A program made the translations under genes and the position numbers. The notes below the pieces were generated by a model. It saw only the letters and a list, made by a program, of their open reading frames with translations, was not told the DNA's origin and searched no databases. From Candidatus Iainarchaeum sp. (GTDB taxonomy: Archaea > Iainarchaeota > Iainarchaeia > JAGGVJ01), in NCBI GenBank assembly GCA_021158055.1, contig JAGGVJ010000018.1, forward strand, positions 1 to 46,175: DNA of 46,175 nt, in the 5' to 3' direction. Positions within the stretch are counted from its first letter, which is position 1, and each line of letters opens with the position of its first letter. Positions 4,801-26,423 of the stretch are shown here, one piece after another.

Positions 4801-6095
4801 TGGCTATCTTCCAAAACCATGGCTTTTCGCAATGCAAGACGCAAGTCAATTATGCCTGAGGACAGGTAATTATCCTGCTTGAGCGCGTATGTTTTTTCAG
4901 CTTTTTTCTTTAAGAGTTCTATTTCCGAAATTTTTTCCTCAAAATTTTCCAGCAGTTCTTTTGGAGAGGTAAAAAGAGTGTTTGACGCTTCAAACCAGCC
5001 GTTGTTTTTTCCGAGAAGTTCATTTAAACCGGACAGAACAACATCATTTATTTCGTAGAGGTCTTCTGATTTAAAGCGCGAGTGTGCGTCTTTTATCTCC
5101 AAAACCCTCTTTTCCAAATCCGCCAGACTCTGAGTGCGGTCAGACTCCATGTCTTCAAGAATTCTCAGTGAATCAGCCGTAAACGAAAAAGAAGACTTGA
5201 AAAGACTATCCCCTCTCAAGCCCACTCCTTTTTTCATTGCGCTTCCAAGAAGATAAACTTTCGGCCTTTTTCCTGAAGAGATCATCTCCTCGATTTCTGA
5301 ACGCGACTCTGAAACAACATCAGAATAAAAAGGGACAACCAGGTCAAAAGCCAGTGCCTGTTCATGCAAACCAGACAGTTTTGAAAGCCCTGAAGCACCG
5401 ATGAAAAAATACTCCACCCACAAAAGAGAAGAAAAAGGCTGCTCTTTTTCAAGAGAATTAATCACATCTTTCATTGCCCTTGAATTTCCCACAGCAGAGT
5501 GAAAGTCCTTTAGTGCGCTTATGGATGCCTGCGTTTCATTAAACCTTCTGAAGACCTCTGCCGAATAATTCGGATCATCTGCTCCGGCGCGGTCAAGTTC
5601 TTCCTGAACAGACAAAGCCATTTCAGTCATTCCTTCAACAGAGTCGTCAAAAGAATCAAGGGAATCTGAAACAGTTTCATAAAACTCATAAGCAGACGAA
5701 ATAACCCTGTCGTAGTTTCTTTCATCTGCCTCGCATTCCTCTTCAACTTTGTAAAAGGCTTTTTTTGCTTGCGTCAAAGAAAACCATGTTTCTGCAATTT
5801 TCAAGGCGTTTTTTTCAGCCAGGTTTTTTAGATTATATTTTTCAAAAAGTCTGCTGTCAAAATCAGAAGAAAGAATCGATTTAACTGCCAGCGAATCATC
5901 TTCTTTTTCCAGAGGAATAACCGAAACCCGGTCAATGCCACTTGACAGTACAGTTTTGCATACAAAAGACGCTTCCTTATCTTCAAGCGCATCTTTTTCC
6001 ATTTCATCTCCCCCAGGAAAAGAAATGCACCCGAAAAGCAGCGTCATCGCAAAGAGGAGGACAAGCCCCCTCTTTGTTTTCAAATTCCCTGCCAT
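1815..6095 (-). CDS. Giant predicted lipoprotein with long coiled-coil ectodomain and C-terminal TM helix
   Basis: ATG at 6095 (MAGNLKTKRG); lipobox LLFAMTLLFGC; >1300 aa of Glu/Lys/Leu/Ser heptad-rich sequence; C-terminal TM VPWILFAVLVLCFGVYWF with basic tail. Confidence 0.8.
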   Translation of the reverse strand: MAGNLKTKRGLVLLFAMTLLFGCISFPGGDEMEKDALEDKEASFVCKTVLSSGIDRVSVIPLEKEDDSLAVKSILSSDFDSRLFEKYNLKNLAEKNALKIAETWFSLTQAKKAFYKVEEECEADERNYDRVISSAYEFYETVSDSLDSFDDSVEGMTEMALSVQEELDRAGADDPNYSAEVFRRFNETQASISALKDFHSAVGNSRAMKDVINSLEKEQPFSSLLWVEYFFIGASGLSKLSGLHEQALAFDLVVPFYSDVVSESRSEIEEMISSGKRPKVYLLGSAMKKGVGLRGDSLFKSSFSFTADSLRILEDMESDRTQSLADLEKRVLEIKDAHSRFKSEDLYEINDVVLSGLNELLGKNNGWFEASNTLFTSPKELLENFEEKISEIELLKKKAEKTYALKQDNYLSSGIIDLRLALRKAMVLEDSQEKVVSGMDNIESKARQAYELRVQDLERLVEGLSSEKTAGIDETTGWLVGFAEKELRVQKENVNGSRTKPLGVRVAVLVNAALEIERVKKIVLDPLTSGLYEVENAGRLLAGLERSLLALEIDSGSKEPLFELLYSAKSSLKKAKASAENNDLESASGKALESLSFAKRLSELIEVEFELFSRPVFEKHKKLRKLILAVDSSVFEEVSRARELSDDIQSFVQSDSTGFGLNAIGKILQIERDLLEIESILKSMHAKSSEVISFGTRKKWLFLSQPVAGEVVESTLVLFFSNPFGLIENVLLSIDSPIPYSQVSDSSLKSCTQKPIKTYFLDGKIHLFFEELAQGSHSCSMEFSFVPAIIESEKYLVERATNESADVKLLFEVDAQGNFDELWVNTTFDLSHFIEADFESSDSKIKLLNIREGKQAVELKAELLDPVSLRFSVPKLGEDTGGCVESSTDIVIINNTGFDLTDVRIHFDLPYSGVEKASLKSSSDISGFDYFGSSSNNVFFVLKSLQSHGVSRAEYSFCFDSSDQAKEDVLSALEEKINELEKELPLNEALFEGFEEKLSELMENYPEMSLSEFAVAAQSISTGIDKSREEVFDLKKLSLEYEALSDKFLQVRLNLESFEITEEFAQDLLFADNEFARSQKMCLSGNIAEAIDVLGYALEVIEGSDEFKSQTNDLFEEFQALFESASNLRNVLDMLENPSGESVAAVSNLNSLIENLPVYLNDPQSRKFFIETENSLIESENCIEKDIKAQMASFAENLDSLFEKIKAAADATEVMSVLVKPELEDDVIEKALDTGFGFLVSESAVETAQNKDNRFRQDIELLEKECVEGEDTIGSFVEVVQKDCFARFDALESNVGSELRKRALVIDHAREASESELSLALVELSEKEALASSESSAQLAESRVLLEDSKALFEEKKFATSAFLSRYVRSGMLVLVDEKKNSGEFGVVPWILFAVLVLCFGVYWFRFKKTGEKPVERKRVPRKVFG

Positions 6096-6556: not shown

Positions 6557-9500
6557 TCAGGGAATATGTGACTCCCACATTTCTTTTATGTAATTGGCGT
6601 TGCAGTCGCTGTTTGCCCAAGTCCCAAAATTCTTGAAGTTGTATATGTTTGGAACAGAGCCTGAGTCGTCAAACAAAACATTTTCATGCTCCAGATAATC
6701 TTTTAAGTCGCCCGCGCTTATCTCGTTTTTCCTCCAGTACTTCAACCCCGAACAAAAGCTGTTCATGTTGGGGGAGCAGGTGCCTGTGTTTTCCTGGAAA
6801 GTGTCGACTGCAAGTGGATCATCAGCAAAAGAAATTGATGACTCCTGTTCAAACGCGTTTTTTTCCTGTGCCGCACTGAACGTTAAAACAGAATCGCCGG
6901 CAGCAGCTGGAAACACAACTGTATTCACGGCCACGCCGGTGTTGATATTATGATATTCATCATCATCACCAGAGTCATCACACCACCACGAACTTTCAAA
7001 GTCCCAGGTGCTGCATCCAAAATCCCCTTTATCTATGAACTTATCATCGCCGCATAAGTCATCTGATTCATTTGATATGGCAGAACTACATGTGCTGTTT
7101 TCAGATTTCACCATCGGCGCAAGAAACAAGTTGTAACTGACAGCAAGGTCGCTTTCATCAATCGGATACGTGTGATAGAACAAAAGAATGAAATACTGGT
7201 CCGAACCAAGTTTTTCCCCCAACTTTGCGCTAAGTTTTTCAGTTGAATAAACCTTAAAAACACTGTTGTCTGCATGGGTTGCGCTGCAATAAGATGAAGC
7301 GCCGCAATTGTTTCCCTGGCCGGAGCTTATTGCTTCAAGAGAATCCCCGTCTGAAGTGTACCTCCCAACCAATTTTTCCCCGAAATCGCTTACTTTGGCA
7401 TCCCCCTGCTTCAGATTAAGAATCATGCCTCCAAGCGAATTATCTTCGGAATTATTGTAGACTGCAAAAATCCCGTAAACTGTTTTAGTCTTGTGAGTAA
7501 GCTGCCTTATTTTCCCACACGCTCCAACCATAACTTCCATTGCCGGCTGGTTCAAAACCGCAGAAAATGCCTTGTTTGATTCCTCTGTGTCTTCAATTAT
7601 CATTTCTGCGAAATCACTTAGTTCAACATTGTAATCCAGTTCTTCCTCTTTGGTTGCGCCGGCATCAAGCTCAAACTTCTCAAAAGAAATTGAATCTGTC
7701 CCGTCAGCAAACTTTGCGTTTAAAACTTCAACACTGAAAGAAATATCTGAAACCTTTTCCTCGGAAGTGTTCGTGACTTTGATTGTGGTTCCCGCTTTCA
7801 ATAAACCGTCGTCTTCCCACACTTCCCGTGAATTTTCAAACAAGACCTCAATGCCGCAGGATGACGGCACATCGCTTCCCTGGCAAACAGAAGAGCTGTC
7901 GATATTGCTGTGGTCAAAGGAAATCGGGTTGTCGGTGCCGCCACAGGTAGACCTTTCCTGCTGCTTATCACTTCCTGAATTGGATTCGTTTTTTATGTGC
8001 GTGGTTCCACCGCAAGGCACGCTGTCTTTTGTAATCTCCCGCATTGACTCTTCATTCATCCCGGTAAAAAGAACCAGCTTCTTGCCATTGAAATCATCGC
8101 ATTTCCCGCTTTGGGCAATATCCTCCCATGAATTCAGCGCATAACGGTTCACTCCCTCGCTTCCGCCCTTGAGCCCCCAAAAGCTCCCGACATACTGAGG
8201 ATAGCACTGATTGCATTCAACAAAAGCCGTGCAGCTGAAAAGACACCTGTAATAATATGCACTTCCAGCGCAACCGGAACACGTGGGCGGGTTGCCTGAC
8301 GACACAGTGTGGCAATTGTTACTCTTATACACTTTTTTGCCTGAAGGCAGGTACTTGACAAGCAAACTGTTGAGTTGCGCGTCAGTTTTTTTAGGCCAGT
8401 CGCATGCCGGCTCCGGGGGCGGGCCACAGTTGCTGCACCCTCCGGTACACCCTTTGCTAACTGTCAGACTGGAATGAGCTCTTCCAAGCCTGCAGCATTC
8501 AAGCCTGTTCTGAGAAATGTCAGTTGTCGGAGCATCAAGCTCTTCTGTAGTCAAAACCCTCAAATCTTCAGAGCCGTCAATCATTGAAGGAAAATCAGCC
8601 TTACTGTCCAAAAGAAACAAACTTACCATGTCAAAAAATCCCAGTTGCTTTAAATAACCGTAATCATCCTTCACTAACTTTCCATTGTCACATATCTGCA
8701 GGGCAGTGGCGGAATAACTGCCGGTCCCTGAAACATTCTGGTAAGTGCGCTTTGTAGAACAGGCACCTGTGAAAGCCGAAAAAGACCCGTAAACCCAGTC
8801 AACGCCGCATTTTCCGTTCAGGTAGCGCAGCAGGGAATCCTCGCCCGGGTGGCCGACAACTATCTTGTGGTACCTGCTAAAAGCACTCATTATCGACGAA
8901 TCGCTCCCGAAAATACCTCTTGCAAAAGAAATCGGAACAACCGCTTTCCTGAAATCATCCCATTCAGAGGAAGGGGTGACGCACTTTTTGAAAGAATCAT
9001 CCGCAAAATCAGAAAACAATGAAATGCTGTTTCCCGAGCCGTTATCTGCCTGCCTGTCATCAAAAAGAACAACGGTGTTGAAAGCCTTCATTTCACCTGA
9101 ATCAGCGGAAATATCCCCGACAAGAGGCCCCACCGTTGCAAGCGGCTCGTCGCAAATCTGCGAAGGTTTAAAAGGAGACTCGTTAAATTTCGGGATAAAA
9201 ACATTGTCTTTTGCATAGACAAGCGCATTGTCAGTGATTGCCGCAACCACAATCCACATGTTGGCCCCTACTTTTGCAGGATAAACAGCATATGACTCCC
9301 CGATAAATGCGTTCCCACCATAACCGATGAAAACCGACTTTTCAGAACCCGGGCCGTTCACGCAATAAAACACAGGGTTGCCTGAAGCCGGGTCGTTTAC
9401 TGCGGCAAGCAGGTTCACTGACTCAGGGTCCTGCGGATTGCCTGACGCAGACGAATCCTGCTGCGCGCTCCAAACCAGCACAATATTGTAATTATCCCTG

Positions 9501-12500
9501 TCCGGATCCGAATACAACTCGTCAAAACTCTTTACATTTTCAAGCGGAACACCTATTTTTTCCGCAATGGATTCAGCTGTTTCTTTTTCTTTTGAATCGC
9601 CGTAAGCAATCCTCATCAGGCAAGGGCCCCCGCCAGAACGGGTTTTTTCAAGGGCAATGTCATGATTTTCCTCGCTTCCCAAAGTTTTTTTCCAGATATA
9701 GGCCATTAACGGGTCACTGCTCAGCGAAGTGTCTCCAAGCCGCCATGCAATGCTTTTTCCCTTTGGATCCAGTGAATTCAAAGGCGTTGAATCGCGGTCA
9801 TCTTCAATCATGTCAAAACACAGCTCCTCATCGCTTGAAACGCAATGCAAATGATGTGAATCATAAGGCACAAACGCAGCGTCTGAAAAAACACTGTAGC
9901 TCATCGGCTCGCTCAGTTCAATCTTCACTTCCCTTGAAGACGCAGGGTTCAGCCAGTTGTTTGAAGAAACCGACGCATTGTCCCAGGTATCTTTTATCAT
10001 GCGCCACAAATACCTTGCGGCCTCGTCAGAAGAACACTCTGTTACGCTGCAGTCGTTTTCCTCGTCAGAAATCACGTGAATATTTATGTAATTCTCCCCT
10101 GTTGCGGAAACCAAGGTGCCTGACTGACCGGCTGAAACCGTGAAACTCAGGTCTGTTCCGGCAACATCTGAAGGGACAAGGATTTCCTCAATCATCCATT
10201 CAGAAGAATCTTCCTTGAAATTTGCGTCTTTTTCAATGGGTTCAACAAGCGGCTCGGAATACTTCACAGTCACATTGTCAACCTGTTCCAGCCGGTTTCC
10301 CTCAAAATCAAACACGCGGATTCCTATGTCCTTCACTTTTGCCTCAACAGGTTTCGTGAACTCCAAAGGCACAAACAAATAATCGTCACCATCCTTTATT
10401 GCAACCCTGAGCATCTGCTCCGGGTTCTCGCTGACAACAATTGAAATCCCGTCAAAAGCGGCTTTGTATTCCATGGCGGAATAAACAAACAAAGCCTCCA
10501 GATGAATCGGGTATGTCCCTTCTTCACTCGGGGCGGTCAAAATTGCCTTGTATTTTCCGATCTGCGGGCTGTAAGTCATTTCAATGGTTTCCGGTGAAAA
10601 AGACGGTGCAGACAACTCAACAGTTGCCTCGGAAGACACTGAATTTGCCCACTTCACAATCGCTTCAACATCCACTTCTTCTCCCGGCGCCACAACCAAC
10701 GGAGACGCAGAAACATCTGCAAAAACAAGTTCGCCTGAATCCGACTCAACAGGTTTGAGTTTGAACGAAGCTGAACCGACCGCGGGCTCACTGCCTGTCT
10801 GGACAGCACGCAAGTCAACAACATAAGAACTAAACTCCGGATTTGACGGGACATCAAGGTCCCTCAACACAAAAACGCACTCTGACGACAGGTACTCTGT
10901 AAGTTTTTTGTCTGAAAAACCGAACTGGACAGAAGACGCGAAAACATTCACGTCATCGTCCAAGTCAAGGATTTTGCCGTAAGCTTCTCCGTCGTCTGTC
11001 ACGCGCCTGACAACCCTGACTTTCACGGGTCCCGCGTCAACTCCTTTCGGCACATCTCTTGTGTAACTGGTCCCGTTGTGTTCTTCGTCCTCGCTTCCGA
11101 AATAAAAAACCACGGAAAGCTCTTGTTCAGAGTTCGCGGAAACCGTAACCGTAAAAGTTTTTTCAGCACTTAAATGCACACCTGACACACCCCATTCCGC
11201 TTTAATTGTAAACACCATGCTCTTGTCAGTCAAAGGCGCGCTTATCCCTGCCTTGTAAGCCAGCAGGCCATTGTCAAAAACCATCGGCTTGAAAGAAGAC
11301 GAATCCCCGCTCCTGTAAGTGACCATGGCATTTTTGACCAGATTTGTGCCTGCAAAAACTTTTGCCGAAAGCACGAAATCCTCCCCGAGAGCAACAGCGT
11401 AATTCGGCATTACATCCTGTATTATGAGGTTTTCAGGAGACACTGCAAACTCAAGCCGGATCGGCAGGTCAACTCCCTTTGAATCCATTGAATAAATCCT
11501 TGACTTGAACTCTTTGAACTCAAGCGGAACACCTGTTACCATTACCTTGTATTTGAAATTGGGTTCAAGCATGATTATTTCAGTCCACGGCAAAGACGAA
11601 ACGGAAAGCGAACCGTCAGACTCCGAACCCCTTATCTTTTCGTCAAAACTGCTCCACAAAGTGACTTTTACTTTGTCTGTCACAGCCTCTCCCGCCGCAA
11701 GCACTTTTATTCTAAGCGGCGCTCCCTTGAAAAGAGTTATTTTCTGCTCCGCCAACCCGCCTGCAAATATCCTCACAAGTCTTTTAATGCGGTAATCAGA
11801 ATACAGAGAGTAACCTGTGACATTTGCGTACACCTGCGCATTTGCAGGGATGCCTTTGAAAAGCACACAACCAGTATTGGTGGTTTCCCCCCTTGCAATC
11901 TCATGATCTTCGTCGTTGAACACAATCACTGTCGCCTGTTTTGCAACGGTCTTCCCTGCCTTGACACAGACATTAAACCTGCCTTTCTCTGCTTTTTCAA
12001 TCGGGGTTATTGAAACATTCCGGACTTCAACCGAACCTGCCTTTACCTTGAAAGAGCTTGTGCTCTCATCAACAAACCCTTCTTTTGAAACAAACACATA
12101 CAGCTCTTTACCGCTTTCGGTCCTGATATCCGCGCGACCGGAACCGTCTGAAACGCCGGATGAAACAACTGTTTTTGTTTCAAAATCCTTCAGCTCAACA
12201 GAGGCACTAACCACAGCACCTGCATTGACACTGTTGTGAACCGTAACTTTTACGACACCGCTTGAATAATCAGGAGAAAAATCAGGATTTTCCTCCACTG
12301 CTTCGTCAAGGCACGACTTCAGATTAAAAACCAAAAGCGACTCGTTTTCTTCAACAACAAGGGTTTTTAAAGATAAAAACTTTTGGCAGACAGATTTTCC
12401 GTCTTTTTGCAGGTCAACTGAATAACTCCCTTTCGCAAGACCTTCAAACAAAACCTTTCTCTCAGGGGACTTTACATTTTCTGAAAACTGCGCGCCGTCA

Positions 12501-17428: not shown

Positions 17429-18637
17429 ATGCAACAAACACAACAAACCGGCCAAAAACAAACACTACACCCCCCACAACAACCGCACATGCAGGAAGAC
17501 AAATTCAAACAAGTTGCAAACCAGATAAGAGACCTTGAAACACGCCAAAAACAAGCAGCTGACGCAATAATCTCCGCAGACAAAGAACTGCACTTATTCA
17601 ACACAATAAAAAACGAACCAAAAAACATGACTGTTGCAGGAGTGGACGGCGGACTTCACCTCAGGCGGTTTCACGGCGCAGACCTCATACTTACCCGCGC
17701 GGCAGCAGCCATTTTTTCAATCGAAAACCAAAAACTGAAAAAAACAAGATACTCACCCGAACTGATACCCCAACCCAAACCATACTGCCTGACAAACGCA
17801 CTCGACAGCGAAGAATCAATGATAAGCGCTTCCATACACCGGTTAAGGGAAGAGATAACAACTGCAATTTGCGTTGCAGAAAAAGAAAACGTCGAACTCC
17901 TGCTCCTTGACGGCTCGATATTCCCGCAAAACGCAGACAAACCGCGCGCAGGAAGCAAACTGAACACAGAATACAACTCACTCCTCTCACTCTACGAAAA
18001 ACTCTACAAGACCTGTGAAAAAACCAACACAACACTTGCGGGAATAGTCGAAGACTCACGGGGAACAATATTCTGCACAACACTCGTTGAAGACCACGCA
18101 AAAAAACTCGAAGAAAAAAACAAAGCAACAGCACTCAAACTGACAGGCAACAAAAAAACAATCGAAACATCAACAGACACAACACTGCTGTTCTTTGCAA
18201 TGAAAAAAAAGCAATACACCACACCACAACCCTACTCAAAAGACCCGCGCAAACACCCAGTGCTCAAAGACTTTCCAAAAGAAATCCCGGAAAAAATAAA
18301 AGTAAGCTACCTGAAAAACTCAGAGTTTGACAGGCCCCTTAGGATTGAATTCATGCTGAATGACAGTAAAGGTACAGGGAAAGGAAAAGAGGAATGTATT
18401 GGGGGAAATGATAATAACAAGAGTGGGAGGATTAAAAGCGAGCAAAACTTAATGGAAAAAATCTTTTTCCTTTCCAGTTCTTTTCGAACCTACGCCTACC
18501 CCACAGTACTCATAGAAGCAGACCTGCGCGCAAAACTCAAATACGAAGAAGTTGAATTCGCACTGAATTCAGTGATTGACCAGGCGCGAAGCACGTCAAT
18601 CCTTCTGGAATTAAGAAGGGATTCAAGGCCGTTTTGA
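17429..18637 (+). CDS. nurA: NurA-family 5'-3' nuclease
   Basis: MTVAGVDGGLHLRRFHGADLILTRAAAAIF; ELLLLDGSIF; adjacent to herA. Confidence 0.8.
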   Translation: MQQTQQTGQKQTLHPPQQPHMQEDKFKQVANQIRDLETRQKQAADAIISADKELHLFNTIKNEPKNMTVAGVDGGLHLRRFHGADLILTRAAAAIFSIENQKLKKTRYSPELIPQPKPYCLTNALDSEESMISASIHRLREEITTAICVAEKENVELLLLDGSIFPQNADKPRAGSKLNTEYNSLLSLYEKLYKTCEKTNTTLAGIVEDSRGTIFCTTLVEDHAKKLEEKNKATALKLTGNKKTIETSTDTTLLFFAMKKKQYTTPQPYSKDPRKHPVLKDFPKEIPEKIKVSYLKNSEFDRPLRIEFMLNDSKGTGKGKEECIGGNDNNKSGRIKSEQNLMEKIFFLSSSFRTYAYPTVLIEADLRAKLKYEEVEFALNSVIDQARSTSILLELRRDSRPF

Positions 18638-18948: not shown

Positions 18949-20514
18949 GTGAATCAAATGGAAAAATACGAACCGGTTGAAATAGGAACAGTTACATCGG
19001 GACCTGATTCCCCGAGCCCGCTCAAAGTCGACTTTGTTGTCTCGCCGCAAAAAAGCGTGCACACCGGAGAATACGTTGTGGTTGAACAAGACGGGGGGCT
19101 TTTGATACTTCAGGTCCGGAACCTTGTGACATCAAACAGATACTTTGAACGCGCGGAAAGCATCCAGGAATTTGAGCGAAGCGGAAGACCCATCCAGACC
19201 CAGTTTCCAACCGCGGACTGGGAATACCTTGTCGCGGAAACGCGGCCTCTTGGAGTTTACAAGGAAAAGCAGTTTTTAAGGCCCACTTTCCCGCCAAGCC
19301 CCGGCGACAAAATCCAAAAAACCCCGAAAGCGCTCCTTGAAGAATTCCTCGGCTTTGAAAAAAAAGCAGGCATTCACATGGGCTCGCTTGAATTCCATGA
19401 CGTTCCCGTAAACCTGAACATTTCAAAACTTCTTCAAAAACACGTTGCAATCCTTGCAATGAGCGGGGCGGGAAAAAGCTACCTTACATCTGTTCTTCTC
19501 GAAGAAATACTTGACAGAAAAACAGAAGACGGAAGAATCGCAACCGTCATAATCGACCCGCACGGCGAATACTCCGGTTTCGCGCGCTCGCCTGAACCTG
19601 GTGACAACGAATCTGTTGACTACTCAGACAAGGTTTCGCTCATGAAAGCATCCGACATAAGGATTGGAGTGAGCAGCCTTAATGCATACGAACTTGCGTC
19701 TTATTTTATTGACAGCAGCGGAGCGCAGAAAAGAGAGCTTTCGCGAATCATCGACGAACTCAAAAGGGAAATGAAACAAGGGCTCGGACCATACAATCTC
19801 AGAAAAATAATGCAAAAATTAGACGACGACGCCGAAATAAACACCAACGTAAAATTGCCTCTCTTGTCATGGCTAAAAGAACTTGAGTACCTGAATCTTT
19901 TTTCCGACATCGACTACCCCAACATTTCAGACATCGTAAAACCGGGAAAAGCAAAAATTGTGGACTTTTCAGGAATAACCGACCTGCGAAAAAAACGAAT
20001 TATAACGTCATTCATCTCAAAAAAAATGTTTTCAAAAAGACGAAACAAGCGCATTCCACCGTTTCTACTTGTGGTTGAAGAAGCGCACCAGTTTGTGCCG
20101 GAACAGTCAAGACAAGGCGAAACCCCTTCAAAATCAATCCTTGAAACCATTGCGCGCGAAGGAAGAAAATTCGGTGCATCACTGTGCCTTATTTCCCAGC
20201 GCCCCATAAATCTTTCAACCACAATTCTTTCGCAGTGCAACACACACATAATTCTGCGGATAACAAACCCATACGACCAAAAACACATCGGGGAAAGCTC
20301 TGAAGGAATAGACCAAAAAGTTCTTGACATGATCACAGTCCTGCGGGTCGGGGAAGCCCTGATTGTGGGTGAAGCCGTGCGATACCCTGTTTTTGTAAAG
20401 GTAAGGAAGAGGAAATCGCGCAAAAGCCCGCATGAAAAAACATTGCAGGAAGCCGCAATAGAATTCGAGAAAAAACAAAAACAAGACCTTGACGACCTCG
20501 ACGCATTCATGTAA
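18949..20514 (+). CDS. herA: HerA-type bipolar DNA translocase/helicase
   Basis: N-terminal HAS-barrel-like region; Walker A ILAMSGAGKSYLTSVLLEE; VIIDPHGEYSGF; LLVVEEAHQFVPE; ISQRPINLSTTILSQCNTHIILR. Confidence 0.92.
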   Translation: MNQMEKYEPVEIGTVTSGPDSPSPLKVDFVVSPQKSVHTGEYVVVEQDGGLLILQVRNLVTSNRYFERAESIQEFERSGRPIQTQFPTADWEYLVAETRPLGVYKEKQFLRPTFPPSPGDKIQKTPKALLEEFLGFEKKAGIHMGSLEFHDVPVNLNISKLLQKHVAILAMSGAGKSYLTSVLLEEILDRKTEDGRIATVIIDPHGEYSGFARSPEPGDNESVDYSDKVSLMKASDIRIGVSSLNAYELASYFIDSSGAQKRELSRIIDELKREMKQGLGPYNLRKIMQKLDDDAEINTNVKLPLLSWLKELEYLNLFSDIDYPNISDIVKPGKAKIVDFSGITDLRKKRIITSFISKKMFSKRRNKRIPPFLLVVEEAHQFVPEQSRQGETPSKSILETIAREGRKFGASLCLISQRPINLSTTILSQCNTHIILRITNPYDQKHIGESSEGIDQKVLDMITVLRVGEALIVGEAVRYPVFVKVRKRKSRKSPHEKTLQEAAIEFEKKQKQDLDDLDAFM

Positions 20515-20719: not shown

Positions 20720-23206
20720 ATGAAAAAGATTGCGGGCATGGTTGTCGGGGCAGACCACATCATAAAAAACAACAATACATTCGTGCGGCTCTGGATCCGC
20801 TCTGATAAAAAACAAGCCGTGTGCAAGGTTTTTGAACCGTACTTTTTCATAGAGCCTGTTTCTGTGCATGCAAAAAAACTTGCCGAAACAATATCCAAAA
20901 TGCGTGTGTCGCATGAAAAAAACAACATAATTCTTCAGGCAAGCGCAAGCAAAGTTTCTGTTGAATCGCTTGAAACAAATTCTTTAAAAAAAGAAGTGAT
21001 AAAAGTTTCCTTCAAAACCCCTGTCGCTTTAACTGCTTTCAAAGTATTCCTGGAAAGCGAACCGGGAATGAGGCTGTTTAACTGCGCCATTTCTCCTGCG
21101 CGCCAGTTCATGCTTGACAACCACATAAATTTCTTTGAATCGTTTGAGTTTGAGGTCGCGGGAAAATTTAACCTTGCAGGGGAAAAATACCCGATGAACT
21201 ATTTTTTGAACGCCGGCCCTTCAGATAAAAAATTCAACGAAATAACCGCGTCAATTTACGTCAACTCTGATTCAAGCTCAAACCCTTGCTCTCACTGCTT
21301 TGACAAAAAAAAGGAAAAATTCATTAATTGGGTTTCAGTCAGTTGCGAAACAGGAGAAAAAAAACAATTTTACAACATATTCAATGACTCTCAAAGAGAA
21401 CTTCGCATGATTGAAGAAGTGAAACTGTTCCTGGACAAAATTTCACCTGACTTCATCACAATCTTTGGAAAAGAAAACGGAATTTTCCGCCTTGTAAAAA
21501 GAGCTTGGGAGCTAGGTGGAAAAAACTCGTTTAAACTCACTGACTTCGGATGCGACAGCACCCCCGTTGCCTTTGAAGTCTTTGAAGACACTGTGCTTGC
21601 CGGCAGGACAATAATTGACATTGAACAAACTGAAAAAATCAGTTTCCACCCGACTTCAAAACTTTCGGACAACCGCTTTGACAAAACCGGTAAATCAGGT
21701 TTTTCAGCCAGACCGCCCGAATCAATTGAATCTGTTGCCAGGCTAAAACTATCAAAAAAATTAAAACCGATCCAAAGACCCGCGCCTCAAAAAGAAGAAA
21801 TTCAAAAACGCTCTGACTGCCTTTTGGAACTTGGCAGGATGCAGGTCCCGACATTTATTTTCATTTCAAAAAAAACCTGTGAAATACCGCATGCCTTGCG
21901 CAGTAATTTTTCAAAACGCACCTCGAAAAGCTATCTTGAAAAAATATTCACTAACGCCAAACAACCGATTTATCTATATGAAAATGAAACCGGTGAAAAA
22001 ACAGAACCTGATTTCAAAAAAAGCAAACATCTTCCGCCAAACACAACTGATTGCGCCCCGAAAGGAGTATACTCCGATGTTGAAGAACTGTCCCTGAACA
22101 ATGCACTCCCGCTGATAACCCTGTTAAAAAATACCTGTCCGACAACCATGAACTGCAATTGCTGCAAACCAGTGTTTTCAACAGACATCCGAAGAACAAA
22201 CTGCGCGCCTTCTTCAGAAGTAACTGTCGTGTTCAAAAAAGACCACTTTTTTTTCACAAGCTTTGACGAGTCCTGGGCAGCGAAACACCACGAGTCAGAC
22301 GCCAAAAACAGGCGCGCACGCGAACAACTCAAAAAAACGTTTTTTTTAAGGACCATCCCGACAGGCCCGTTTAAAAAAATGGAAAAAGCAAACGTGCTTC
22401 TCGGAGACGCTATGGAACTTGTTAAAGACGGTGACGCTGATTTTCTGGAATTCAAAAAAAATCATACGACATGGTTTTGCAAAAACAAAAACGGCATTCT
22501 TCCAAAAGGCATTCTCAACCTTAATGACGAAAACAACAACAAAAGAGAAAAAGGTTTAGCTGCCAACATCACTCAAAAAAACAAGGGAATTATGACTTAC
22601 TGCCTGCCGCAACCGGAAAACCACCAAATAAGCGACTGGCTTAAAACAAATGTATTGCAAAACACACCTTTTCTTGGAAAAGACTTTTCGCACGCAATAA
22701 ACTCCTTTTTTACGTTTTTTGCAAACAAACTGAAAAAGGAATGCAATACAACCGGCTTTACATTTTATCACATTGAAGGCAGTTCAATTTTTGTGGATGC
22801 AAAATCGTCAAAAGTATTAAAACACTTCTGCAGTGAAAAACTGGGATCAAACACCCTGAAAAAAACGATCCACTGGAACAAAATTCTTTTAAAGGGACCG
22901 CTTGGCGTAATGGCAGGGATAACAAAAGAAGGGTTGTTTGAATCCATTCAAAAAGAAGACATTCCAGTACATGCAAATCAAAAAGAGGTCACCAAGTGTT
23001 TCCTGTGCGCAGGCAATAAGAAAAGAAACGAAGAAACATTGACTGTTGCAAAAAAATACATTACGAAAAACAATTCAACAGCTGAACCACAGTTAACTTT
23101 TTTTGAAGGTTTTGAACTGCCTGTTTTAACTGTCAAAACACGCGCTTCAAACACAGCAAAACAACTTGAAATCAATGCGACAGCAAATTCACAACAGCAA
23201 ATCTGA
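20720..23206 (+). CDS. Divergent, probably catalytically inactive family-B DNA polymerase homolog
   Basis: PolB-like N-terminus (DHIIKNNNTFVRLWIRSDKKQAVCKVFEPYFFIEP; LFNCAISPARQFMLDNHINF); exonuclease-region scaffold (ISPDFITIFGKENGIFRLVKRAWELG); palm-like YHIEGSSIFVDAK and KILLKGPLGVMAGITKEGL. ORF-track start 20489 overlaps herA; ATG 20720 fits better. Confidence 0.65.
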   Translation: MKKIAGMVVGADHIIKNNNTFVRLWIRSDKKQAVCKVFEPYFFIEPVSVHAKKLAETISKMRVSHEKNNIILQASASKVSVESLETNSLKKEVIKVSFKTPVALTAFKVFLESEPGMRLFNCAISPARQFMLDNHINFFESFEFEVAGKFNLAGEKYPMNYFLNAGPSDKKFNEITASIYVNSDSSSNPCSHCFDKKKEKFINWVSVSCETGEKKQFYNIFNDSQRELRMIEEVKLFLDKISPDFITIFGKENGIFRLVKRAWELGGKNSFKLTDFGCDSTPVAFEVFEDTVLAGRTIIDIEQTEKISFHPTSKLSDNRFDKTGKSGFSARPPESIESVARLKLSKKLKPIQRPAPQKEEIQKRSDCLLELGRMQVPTFIFISKKTCEIPHALRSNFSKRTSKSYLEKIFTNAKQPIYLYENETGEKTEPDFKKSKHLPPNTTDCAPKGVYSDVEELSLNNALPLITLLKNTCPTTMNCNCCKPVFSTDIRRTNCAPSSEVTVVFKKDHFFFTSFDESWAAKHHESDAKNRRAREQLKKTFFLRTIPTGPFKKMEKANVLLGDAMELVKDGDADFLEFKKNHTTWFCKNKNGILPKGILNLNDENNNKREKGLAANITQKNKGIMTYCLPQPENHQISDWLKTNVLQNTPFLGKDFSHAINSFFTFFANKLKKECNTTGFTFYHIEGSSIFVDAKSSKVLKHFCSEKLGSNTLKKTIHWNKILLKGPLGVMAGITKEGLFESIQKEDIPVHANQKEVTKCFLCAGNKKRNEETLTVAKKYITKNNSTAEPQLTFFEGFELPVLTVKTRASNTAKQLEINATANSQQQI

Positions 23207-23693: not shown

Positions 23694-26423
23694 TCAAACA
23701 AACGCTTCTTTACTGCTAACTTTTGTAACGCCGTCCTCATCCTTATTTCTCTCAAGGCAATAAAGGCTTCCGCTAACTGATTTTTCCATTGCCTGCTCGT
23801 GTGTTATCAAAAATATCTGCTCAACAATTGTCGGCAGGTGGTCATGAAGCGCTTCTGCAAGCAATTCAACACCGGGAGAATCAAGGTTGTGAGTCGGCTC
23901 GTCAAGCATCAGCCAGCTAAGGTTGCCAGTGAGCACGAAAGAAAACGCTATCCTAAGAGCCAGGCACGCAACAGACCGCTCTCCCCCGCTTACATGGCCT
24001 TCAACAGAAACCCACTGGCCCATGCGGTTTTTAAGCTGAAGAGAATAAGCCCCGCTTTCAATGCTCAGCCTCGCGCTTGAGTAATCCCTGTAAACATAAA
24101 TTCTCGGCCAAACATCCTCCAGGAACACATTTATTTCCTCAATGAAATTTTTCCTCAAGATATCCTGAGTATCTTCAAGAGCCAGAGAAAAAATTCTGAA
24201 ATTGTCGCGCCTGTGCTTCAGCAAAGACGCTTTCTGAAGCATGTCCTCAATGGTTTTAATCTGTTTTTTGATATCTGCCAAGTGACTTTCCTGGCTTTCA
24301 ATTTCCCTTAAAAACCCTTTCACGCGTTCTTTTTTTGCCGAAACTTCAGACAGCAGCGCGGAAACTGCCTGCCGCGCATTTTCAAGCTCTGACTCGTCAA
24401 AAGCAAGAACTTCAATTTGCCTTGAGGTCTCAGCTAAATCTTTTTTCAAAGCAGCAATTTTTTCTTCAAGCTTTTTTGCTTCACACACCGCCTCAAGATC
24501 TCTCTGTTCAGCTTCAAGCTTGTCTTTTTTTGAAGAATCAAACCTGGAGCTGATTTTTTCCACGTTTTTTTCAACAGTTTCAAGAGTTTTGCGCCAGTTA
24601 ACCTGATTTGACTTCACATCACACAACCTTGCAATAAAGGACTGCGACTTTGAAAGCGACTCCTTTTCAATACGCAGCTTTTCCAAATCTTTTGAAACCT
24701 CAAAACGCATTGACTTGCTTGAGAGGATTTTTGACTCTGTCAGCTGCAGGTTTTTTTCCAGCTCAATCAGTTTTTTTTCAAAAAACAACTTTTTTTCAGC
24801 CAACTCTTTTTTGCCTGCAACAATCGCAGACACCTTAATTCCTTCTTCTGCGAGTTCACTGATGTTTTTTATCTTTTCCGAAACAACTGCCATATCGTGT
24901 TTTATCTTTTTGGTTTCGGCATTGTCTGATTCAATGACCGCGGTGTTTTTTTCAATCAAACGCTGTCTTTTCTCATGACTTATATCACTTTCACAAAGAG
25001 GGCATTTACTGCCGGTTTTTTCAAGCCCTTTAACCACTTCTTTCCGCTCGCGCAAATCCGCAGCCAAAAGAAAATTTTTCTTTTCAAGAGACAAAAACTC
25101 TTTTTCAAGAGTAGTTTTTTCCAGGCGAAGATCATCTGTGGATCTTCCGGCAGTCCTTCTTTTAAACAATTCCTGCTTTTCGTCTATTTCCCGCGCCTTT
25201 AAAACCGCTGACGCAAACTCGTTTTCCCCGGAAGCCCGTTCACTTTCAATGCGTGCCTTTTCCCCGTGAAGCATTTTCGCGGTTTCCTCAAGTTCCTTTG
25301 ATTTTTTTTCAAAACCGGCAAGTGTTTTTTCAACGCCGTCAAGTTTTTGGCTGACATCTGCCGGTTTTGTTTCCATGATCACTTTTTTCAACTCGACTCT
25401 CAAAGAAACAGCTTCTTCATCAGCAGAATTCAGTTTTGCTTCAAGCAAATTTTTTTCTTTCAAAAGAGGATCAAGCATGAGTTCAAACTCTTTCATCTGC
25501 TTCAAGGACTCTTTCACGGCAGCCAGCTTTTCATTCGGGCCTGTCAAGGTCAAATAACCTGCATTATGTGCAAAAACCGCTTTCTTTTCTTCAAGCTGAA
25601 TTTCAAGGGAATCAACAGAGCTTGAAAAACCTGCTTTTTTCCTGCTGAAAACATTGAACTTTTCTTCTTTTTCAACCTGTTTTTTTACAATCCGGCCTGC
25701 TTTTTCAATCTCACTTTCTTTTTCAACAACTGTTTTTTCAAGCGCGCCTTTTTCAAAAACCAGTTTTTTTATTGTTTCCTCAAGTTCTTTTTCTGCTTTT
25801 TTCTGCTCTTCCGGACAAGATGACTGCAAAGCTGATTTAAAGTCCTTTACCTTTGTATTTGCAGTGTTCAACACTTTATTCATGTTCACCCTTGCTTTTT
25901 CATACCTGTCTATCCCGAGAAGCTCGTCGATCAGCTCTTTTCTTTTTCCAGGTTTGACCTCAAGAAAAAAATCAAGGCGGTTCTGGTTGCTGTAAATTGC
26001 CCTTGAAAACAAGTCGTAGTCAATTTCAAGAATACTCTCAACGCGCTCTGTCACAAAAGAAGTTTTCGGGGATTCCAAAAGCTTCCAGGTATTTTTCCCC
26101 CGTTTTTGGCGAAGCTCGCTTAAAGTTGTCCCGCGTCCTTTTTCTATCCTGCGCATCACTTTAAACAAGTTTCCGTTGCAGAAAAACTCTGCCTCAACTT
26201 CCGCTTCACTCATTACGGAAGGCTTGTTCATTAGAACGTCGTCAAGCTTGAGTTTTTTCTGCTGCAAATCAGGGAAAGTTCCGAAAAGAGCAAAACTAAT
26301 CGCATCGGTAACTGAACTTTTTCCTGCGCCGCTTATCCCGATCAGCGCGTTTGTTCCCTTGCTGAAGACAAACTCTGTGTTCAGATGAGATTTCCAGTTT
26401 TTTAGCTTGACAGACGAAATCAT
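23694..26423 (-). CDS. rad50: Rad50 SMC-like ATPase
   Basis: FSKGTNALIGISGAGKSSVTDAISFALFG; zinc-hook CPLC in long coiled coil; VSGGERSVACLALRIAFS; LSWLMLDEPTHNLD. Confidence 0.93.
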   Translation of the reverse strand: MISSVKLKNWKSHLNTEFVFSKGTNALIGISGAGKSSVTDAISFALFGTFPDLQQKKLKLDDVLMNKPSVMSEAEVEAEFFCNGNLFKVMRRIEKGRGTTLSELRQKRGKNTWKLLESPKTSFVTERVESILEIDYDLFSRAIYSNQNRLDFFLEVKPGKRKELIDELLGIDRYEKARVNMNKVLNTANTKVKDFKSALQSSCPEEQKKAEKELEETIKKLVFEKGALEKTVVEKESEIEKAGRIVKKQVEKEEKFNVFSRKKAGFSSSVDSLEIQLEEKKAVFAHNAGYLTLTGPNEKLAAVKESLKQMKEFELMLDPLLKEKNLLEAKLNSADEEAVSLRVELKKVIMETKPADVSQKLDGVEKTLAGFEKKSKELEETAKMLHGEKARIESERASGENEFASAVLKAREIDEKQELFKRRTAGRSTDDLRLEKTTLEKEFLSLEKKNFLLAADLRERKEVVKGLEKTGSKCPLCESDISHEKRQRLIEKNTAVIESDNAETKKIKHDMAVVSEKIKNISELAEEGIKVSAIVAGKKELAEKKLFFEKKLIELEKNLQLTESKILSSKSMRFEVSKDLEKLRIEKESLSKSQSFIARLCDVKSNQVNWRKTLETVEKNVEKISSRFDSSKKDKLEAEQRDLEAVCEAKKLEEKIAALKKDLAETSRQIEVLAFDESELENARQAVSALLSEVSAKKERVKGFLREIESQESHLADIKKQIKTIEDMLQKASLLKHRRDNFRIFSLALEDTQDILRKNFIEEINVFLEDVWPRIYVYRDYSSARLSIESGAYSLQLKNRMGQWVSVEGHVSGGERSVACLALRIAFSFVLTGNLSWLMLDEPTHNLDSPGVELLAEALHDHLPTIVEQIFLITHEQAMEKSVSGSLYCLERNKDEDGVTKVSSKEAFV

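Follow-up and report, generated by a model that had tools for sequence, protein, structure and literature searches.

A polymerase-like gene between herA and rad50

The window, by which we mean the whole 46,175-nucleotide stretch of DNA analysed here, carries nurA and herA on one strand and rad50 on the other, all three recognised by Pfam and arranged as a preliminary description of the sequence had them, with an 828-residue open reading frame between herA and rad50 (Table 1). This frame begins with ATG, ends exactly where it had been said to end and contains no internal stops; PolBx is the name that we use for the PolB-like family to which its product belongs. Elsewhere the same genome encodes both an intact PolB of 847 aa and the large subunit of PolD, as well as a 438-aa Mre11-like phosphoesterase that is probably Mre11. 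We note that the Rad50 of the window is 909 aa long, compared with about 685–800 aa in most relatives at this locus.

Table 1. Positions of the genes and protein regions at the PolBx locus of the window, and of reduced PolBx genes in other genomes.
Feature	Positions	Strand	Evidence
nurA (nuclease)	17429..18637	+	PF09376, E 2.2e-13
herA (hexameric ATPase/helicase)	18949..20514	+	PF01935, E 4.3e-37
PolBx, PolB-derived, catalytically degenerate protein	20720..23206	+	828 aa
PolB-type N-terminal domain, residues 1-142, with FEPYFFIE and SPARQFMLDNHINFFESFEFE	20720..21145	+	HMM alignment of residues 2-306 to PolB profile 4-290
3'-5' exonuclease domain remnant, residues ~143-330; ExoI/ExoII acids lost; deleted in other members	21146..21709	+	
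N-terminal domain, second part, residues ~335-412	21722..21955	+	Family alignment
Palm, motif A region up to CxCC knuckle, residues 448-484; S458 in place of motif A Asp; C479, C481, C482 kept	22061..22171	+	
Family-specific insert of ~90-100 aa between CxCC and WFC	22172..22465	+	High-confidence model
WFC, residues 585-587, equivalent to second cysteine after motif A in PolB	22472..22480	+	
Fingers and second part of palm, residues ~593-709; EGS (686-688) in place of motif C DTD	22496..22846	+	
C-terminal tail replacing thumb	22847..23203	+	No alignment past residue 711; low pLDDT
rad50, convergent to PolBx	23694..26423	-	PF13476, SMC_N, weak zinc-hook match
Remnant of PolBx gene, genome family f2	L184:4632-5645	-	
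Remnant of PolBx gene, genome family f2	L192:4765-5874	-	
Remnant of PolBx gene, genome family f2	L188:3210-4325	+	
Remnant of PolBx gene, genome family f2	L186:31-906	-	

Window PolBx is a real, highly diverged homologue of B-family DNA polymerase (PolB), as the preliminary description had claimed. Scans with Pfam, NCBIfam and PADLOC matched it to no family, a Pfam DNA_pol_B search of the whole genome missed PolBx and picked up the intact PolB alone, on another contig, phmmer against the PDB gave nothing beyond a chance hit on a designed protein, and a search with the window protein as sole query returned no relatives. The homology is seen with profiles: an HMM made from 20 PolBs of the phylum scores 46.5 bits (E 8.8e-17), and hhalign against PolB gives a probability of 97.3% for the window protein alone (E 2.4e-11) and 99.2% when its family is included, over residues 3–711. 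The aligned span takes in the PolB N-terminus, the N-terminal domain, the exonuclease remnant, motif A, the CxCC knuckle, WFC, the fingers and the motif C hairpin, and with profile and structure matches in the N-terminal, palm and finger regions PolBx has the fold of a B-family polymerase. Among the segments that had been matched to PolB by eye, PYF, ISPARQFMLDNHI with DIPFAKRYLIDKGL, SPDFITIFGKENGIFRLVKRAWELG with ExoII, and LKNTCPTTMN after motif A all hold, but the match to 'KKRYA' has no support, no alignment extending to that region. The AF2 model of window PolBx (mean pLDDT 53.5) is usable for the insert only; its Foldseek matches are PolBs, for a model too weak to give them weight. For L107, a Diapherotrites member of 501 aa, the AF2 model has a mean pLDDT of 86.9 and a pTM of 0.85, and the best 50 PDB matches listed by Foldseek are all B-family polymerases, headed by Pyrobaculum PolB (5mdn, E 1.9e-10).

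As read from alignment with the genome's own intact PolB, the window copy is without the catalytic residues of both polymerase and exonuclease, much as had been predicted. In ExoII, N274 and D279 are replaced by G250 and I255; the motif A aspartate, D475, corresponds to S458; and D612-T-D614 of motif C corresponds to E686-G-S688. In motif B, K560 aligns with D639, at a place where the alignment is uncertain. The suggestion that ExoI reads SIY stands in part: this segment (178–180) is the nearest one and has no acidic residue, but the ExoI DLE itself falls in an hhalign gap, with SIY not firmly aligned to it. Window PolBx has neither the motif A Asp, the motif C DxD nor the thumb of an active B-family polymerase, thumb homology being undetectable in its C-terminal tail (hhalign ends near residue 711), and of the ExoI DxE and ExoII Asn/Asp of a proofreading exonuclease it has only the two ExoII replacements and a gap with no acid nearby. 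The insert in the window copy follows the pattern NxxPSSxVxV ... H524 ... R534 ... PxGPF ... LxDAxxL.

Distribution and reduction of the PolBx family

A profile search places PolBx members, usually of about 500 aa, in 67 of 87 genomes of the Iainarchaeota/Diapherotrites, a phylum of very small, uncultured archaea, the remaining matches being the ordinary PolBs of the phylum. By tblastn, relatives of about 500 aa are found in 38 of 55 related genomes through their most conserved stretch (one match, in G049, is an ordinary PolB). A scan of the whole collection with two family motifs matched only Diapherotrites-type and other archaeal MAGs, on contigs labelled Candidatus Diapherotrites, Iainarchaeum, Forterrea or archaeal MAGs, though distant relatives may exist outside the phylum; in phages, the only matches were weak ones of motif A to phage PolB. 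The family forms a single clade (100% UFBoot) in which window PolBx is sister to all other members (95% for the rest); it is the first-branching copy, and still has a remnant of the exonuclease domain.

Aligned with PolB (hhalign 98.7%, E 3.7e-16), the family has a single large insertion, positioned exactly between CxCC and WFC, and its profile matches the real PolB genes of the phylum at motif A and at the fingers and motif C, with E values down to 1e-10. The ~500-aa members have lost the exonuclease domain, in place of which there is a short variable linker, as well as the thumb, and they end after motif C; what the family has gained is the insert of about 90 aa between the conserved cysteines (CxCC...WxC). 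Invariant residues are concentrated in CxCC and WFC, the insert and the N-terminal domain, and are mostly intact in the window copy. For example, C261, C263, C264, H303, R312, P325, G327, P328, D341, W361 and C363 (numbered as in L008) occur in 64–67 of the 67 members, and all 11 positions are kept in window PolBx. The new insert is among the most conserved parts of the protein, along with the N-terminal domain, and the least conserved regions include the fingers and motif C. Both motif C positions are acidic in just three of 53 members; the motif A Asp is retained in 49, and because most members keep it there may be residual binding of metal or nucleotide.

The genes around PolBx are conserved along with it. 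Among the 67 genomes with a member, 50 have herA upstream in the same orientation and 57 have a convergent rad50 downstream, and many of the loci counted as being without one or the other end at the edge of a contig or of the fetched region. In a sample of 21 loci the nurA, herA, PolBx and rad50 clusters have 18–21 members each and the next cluster has 12; nearly all the loci share one order and orientation of these four genes, and the other neighbours vary. PolBx has the linkage to nurA-herA and rad50 that marks the HerA-NurA end-resection machinery. No PADLOC defence model matches PolBx, and HerA and Rad50 match generic HerA/AAA models only. There are departures from this arrangement: in genome family f7 (G009, G053, G036 and G057) no herA, nurA or rad50 is found in the stretch covered around the gene, 16 kb long in G009 and shorter in the others, and in at least two fairly complete genomes, G012 and G016 (completeness 92–93%), herA faces rad50 with no PolB-like gene between them, from which it follows that PolBx is dispensable in some lineages.

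Several other features of these genomes were noted. Genes of about 380–420 aa between herA and PolBx in some genomes were considered as candidates for an Mre11 inside the locus and rejected, as they encode Na/Ca exchangers, a Fic protein or DUF2330. Some HerA genes of relatives contain inteins or intein-like inserts (L081:10088-12406, minus strand, Intein_splicing PF14890; L087:4586-7147, plus strand, LAGLIDADG_3), and further HerA reading frames of 850–1136 aa look similar to these. Ordinary PolB frames of 1213–1268 aa, in which the DNA_pol_B match falls into two pieces, as an intein would cause, are present in G045:C43, G029:C45, G024:C61, G046:C51, G071:C66, G047:C77 and G079:C36, and G074:C10 has two full PolB genes close together on one strand (4859-6085 and 9026-10252, in frames of 841 and 836 aa), possibly the result of a duplication.

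In the small genomes of family f2, the gene directly behind nurA-herA encodes a protein of only 290–370 aa. These reduced proteins keep the N-terminal PERQFL, FLEN, LLPxS and LxDA motifs and are without CxCC or the palm motifs; four of them match the PolBx family by hhalign at 98.6%, and the match to PolB is gone. The succession from PolB to the window form and on to proteins of about 500, 430 and 300 aa looks like a step-wise erosion of the core around the N-terminal domain and insert, with the steps in the order that the sequences suggest. The phylum-wide spread of PolBx, its fixed place at the nurA-herA/rad50 locus, the conserved Cys-flanked insert and this apparent erosion had all been missed in the preliminary description. 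The family is apparently undescribed so far: our full-text searches of open-access papers turned up no inactive PolB in a HerA-NurA locus and no such Diapherotrites family, and an arCOG or other database entry may exist.

The relationship of PolBx to PolB2

PolBx had been compared with the predicted-inactive PolB2 group. What defines PolB2 is an operon with iRadA and PPB2 (arCOG07300) together with its place in the PolB tree, and most members are without the first motif C Asp (PMC11791011, PMC4104785); a decayed exonuclease domain is found in PolB2 as well (PMC11791011). Our comparison used haloarchaeal PolB2-like genes with small upstream genes, whose identity as PolB2 is taken from gene order and motifs. 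In the maximum-likelihood tree the PolBx family groups with PolB2 (91% UFBoot), but a place beside the phylum's ordinary PolB survives the AU tests (p 0.51 with LG, 0.66 with C20), and both branches are long; over the PolB2 and PolB3-like origins p ranges from 0.45 to 0.66. The PolBx family HMM gives 10–48 bits with the ordinary PolBs of the phylum, and 11.5 bits with the sole PolB2 matched of the six; sequence by sequence, these scores speak for the ordinary PolB. No iRadA or PPB2 neighbours were seen at the analysed PolBx loci, which have nurA/herA and/or rad50 instead. Because there is no iRadA/PPB2 operon and the tree is not decisive between PolB2 and PolB3-like origins, membership of PolB2 is unsupported, and the motif C acids are not conserved either.

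Sulfolobus Dpo2 aids DNA synthesis, though it was first predicted to be inactive, and PolBx could by analogy be a strongly diverged PolB2 translesion member or sister that still does so. The bootstrap value, the motif A Asp of most members and the similarly decayed exonuclease all fit with this, but we consider it unlikely in view of the equally good tree beside the phylum's own PolB, the HMM scores, the absence of iRadA and PPB2 from the loci, the loss of both motif C acids and the thumb, and the presence of a separate PolB2-like gene in G026. The latter gene (L126:1245-3386, G026:C2) encodes a second PolB, of 714 aa, which groups with the haloarchaeal PolB2-like proteins at 100% and contains DFASMYPS and no DTD; it is probably a PolB2 in the Iainarchaeota.

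A proposed role in DNA end processing, and comparison with known systems

The PolBx family is under purifying selection. In the closest pairs omega (NG86) is 0.04 (G009/G053), 0.13 (G024/G073), 0.20 (G029/G045), 0.21 (G039/G046) and 0.23 (G028/G074), these pairs being from lineages other than that of the window and more distant pairs being near saturation. Since the catalytic residues are lost and the gene is nonetheless conserved beside genes for end trimming, it has probably been reused as a structural helper in repair, where a structural role in repair or replication had been suggested from the outset, and this is a role that the dead residues, the conserved locus and purifying selection support. 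We propose, with a probability of roughly 0.6, that PolBx, a PolB derivative without catalytic activity, serves as an accessory or scaffold subunit of the end-processing machinery HerA-NurA(-Mre11-Rad50). The N-terminal domain and what remains of the palm and fingers would bind DNA ends or single-stranded DNA, and the insert, which may bind a metal ion, would dock HerA, NurA or Rad50; PolBx would then hold DNA in place to be resected, or to be passed on to RadA or an active polymerase, and would synthesize none itself. Counting against a HerA-NurA subunit is that conservation of a neighbourhood can outlast function. The broader picture, in which a whole archaeal phylum has made a polymerase into a dedicated non-enzymatic subunit of HerA-NurA-Rad50, its parts eroding around a Cys-flanked docking insert and the window copy being the earliest-branching and least reduced form, seems to us an even bet.

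PolBx might instead act in replication, binding primer-template, PCNA or PolD/PolB as a polymerase decoy or regulator and being merely co-expressed with herA-nurA. Its polymerase origin makes binding to DNA junctions plausible, and the 500-aa form keeps the fingers and palm scaffold; we doubt this explanation, as the 290–370-aa versions keep N-terminal and insert motifs and not the palm, and as the PCNA-binding-like C-terminal peptide of the phylum's PolBs (KQSSxxxFF-type) is lost, the window copy having only a non-canonical QLTFF. That the gene is a decaying pseudogene or a passenger with little function is disfavoured, and strongly so. Catalytic loss, progressive shortening, fast evolution and absence from some genomes would all be expected of one, but the frames are open in nearly all genomes, omega is low, C, H, R, P, G, D and W residues are invariant in 62–67 of 64–67 members and mostly kept in the window, and the same locus recurs in tens of genera. 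It is scarcely conceivable that the window copy is a working full-length PolB with alternative catalytic residues, near full length and with E686 at the first motif C Asp position as it is, when motif A and the second motif C position have serine for aspartate, ExoII has Gly and Ile for Asn and Asp, there is no thumb homology and the model is of low confidence outside the insert.

Accounts of archaeal end resection usually name four proteins: NurA, HerA, Mre11 and Rad50. The PolBx locus resembles the archaeal HerA-NurA-Mre11-Rad50 locus in its clustered nurA, herA and rad50, and differs in having its Mre11-like gene elsewhere and the gene for an inactive PolB in the cluster. An extra gene that most genomes of a single DPANN phylum conserve at this locus, and that neither Pfam nor NCBIfam detects, gives a direct lead towards a new component, and for annotators these 'hypothetical proteins' are polymerase-derived. 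The strongest sequence match is with the ordinary PolB3-type PolB of the Iainarchaeota (G000:C36, 847 aa, L001), which shares the N-terminal domain, palm, fingers and the CxCC...C after motif A; compared with it, PolBx is without catalytic acids, has a decayed or deleted exonuclease, has lost the thumb and C-terminal peptide and has gained the ~90-aa insert, and the PolBx series presents a graded natural stripping of an enzyme to what would be a scaffold. With PolB2 (Dpo2), PolBx has in common that it is a diverged archaeal PolB paralogue with a broken exonuclease, an altered motif C and a link to DNA-damage genes, but PolB2 keeps motif A (DFSSLYPN), usually the second motif C Asp and the iRadA-PPB2 operon, whereas PolBx has NurA-HerA and Rad50 as neighbours, no motif C and a new insert.

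Inactivated PolBs are also found beyond the archaea. Chordopoxvirus F12 has reportedly changed from a PolB into a protein that is no polymerase (PMC4304020); it differs from PolBx in being viral and in having an unrelated role. Yeast cannot do without the inactive C-terminal PolB half of the eukaryotic Pol epsilon, which binds the replicative helicase CMG (PMC7544198). Like PolBx this half is a PolB module that has been inactivated, is retained for structure and has a link to a helicase, CMG in the one case and, as we propose, HerA in the other; unlike PolBx it is fused to an active polymerase and belongs to a different lineage, and the binding of PolBx to HerA is a proposal from the genes. 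PolBx would be another inactive polymerase tied to a helicase, beside the C-terminal half of Pol epsilon.
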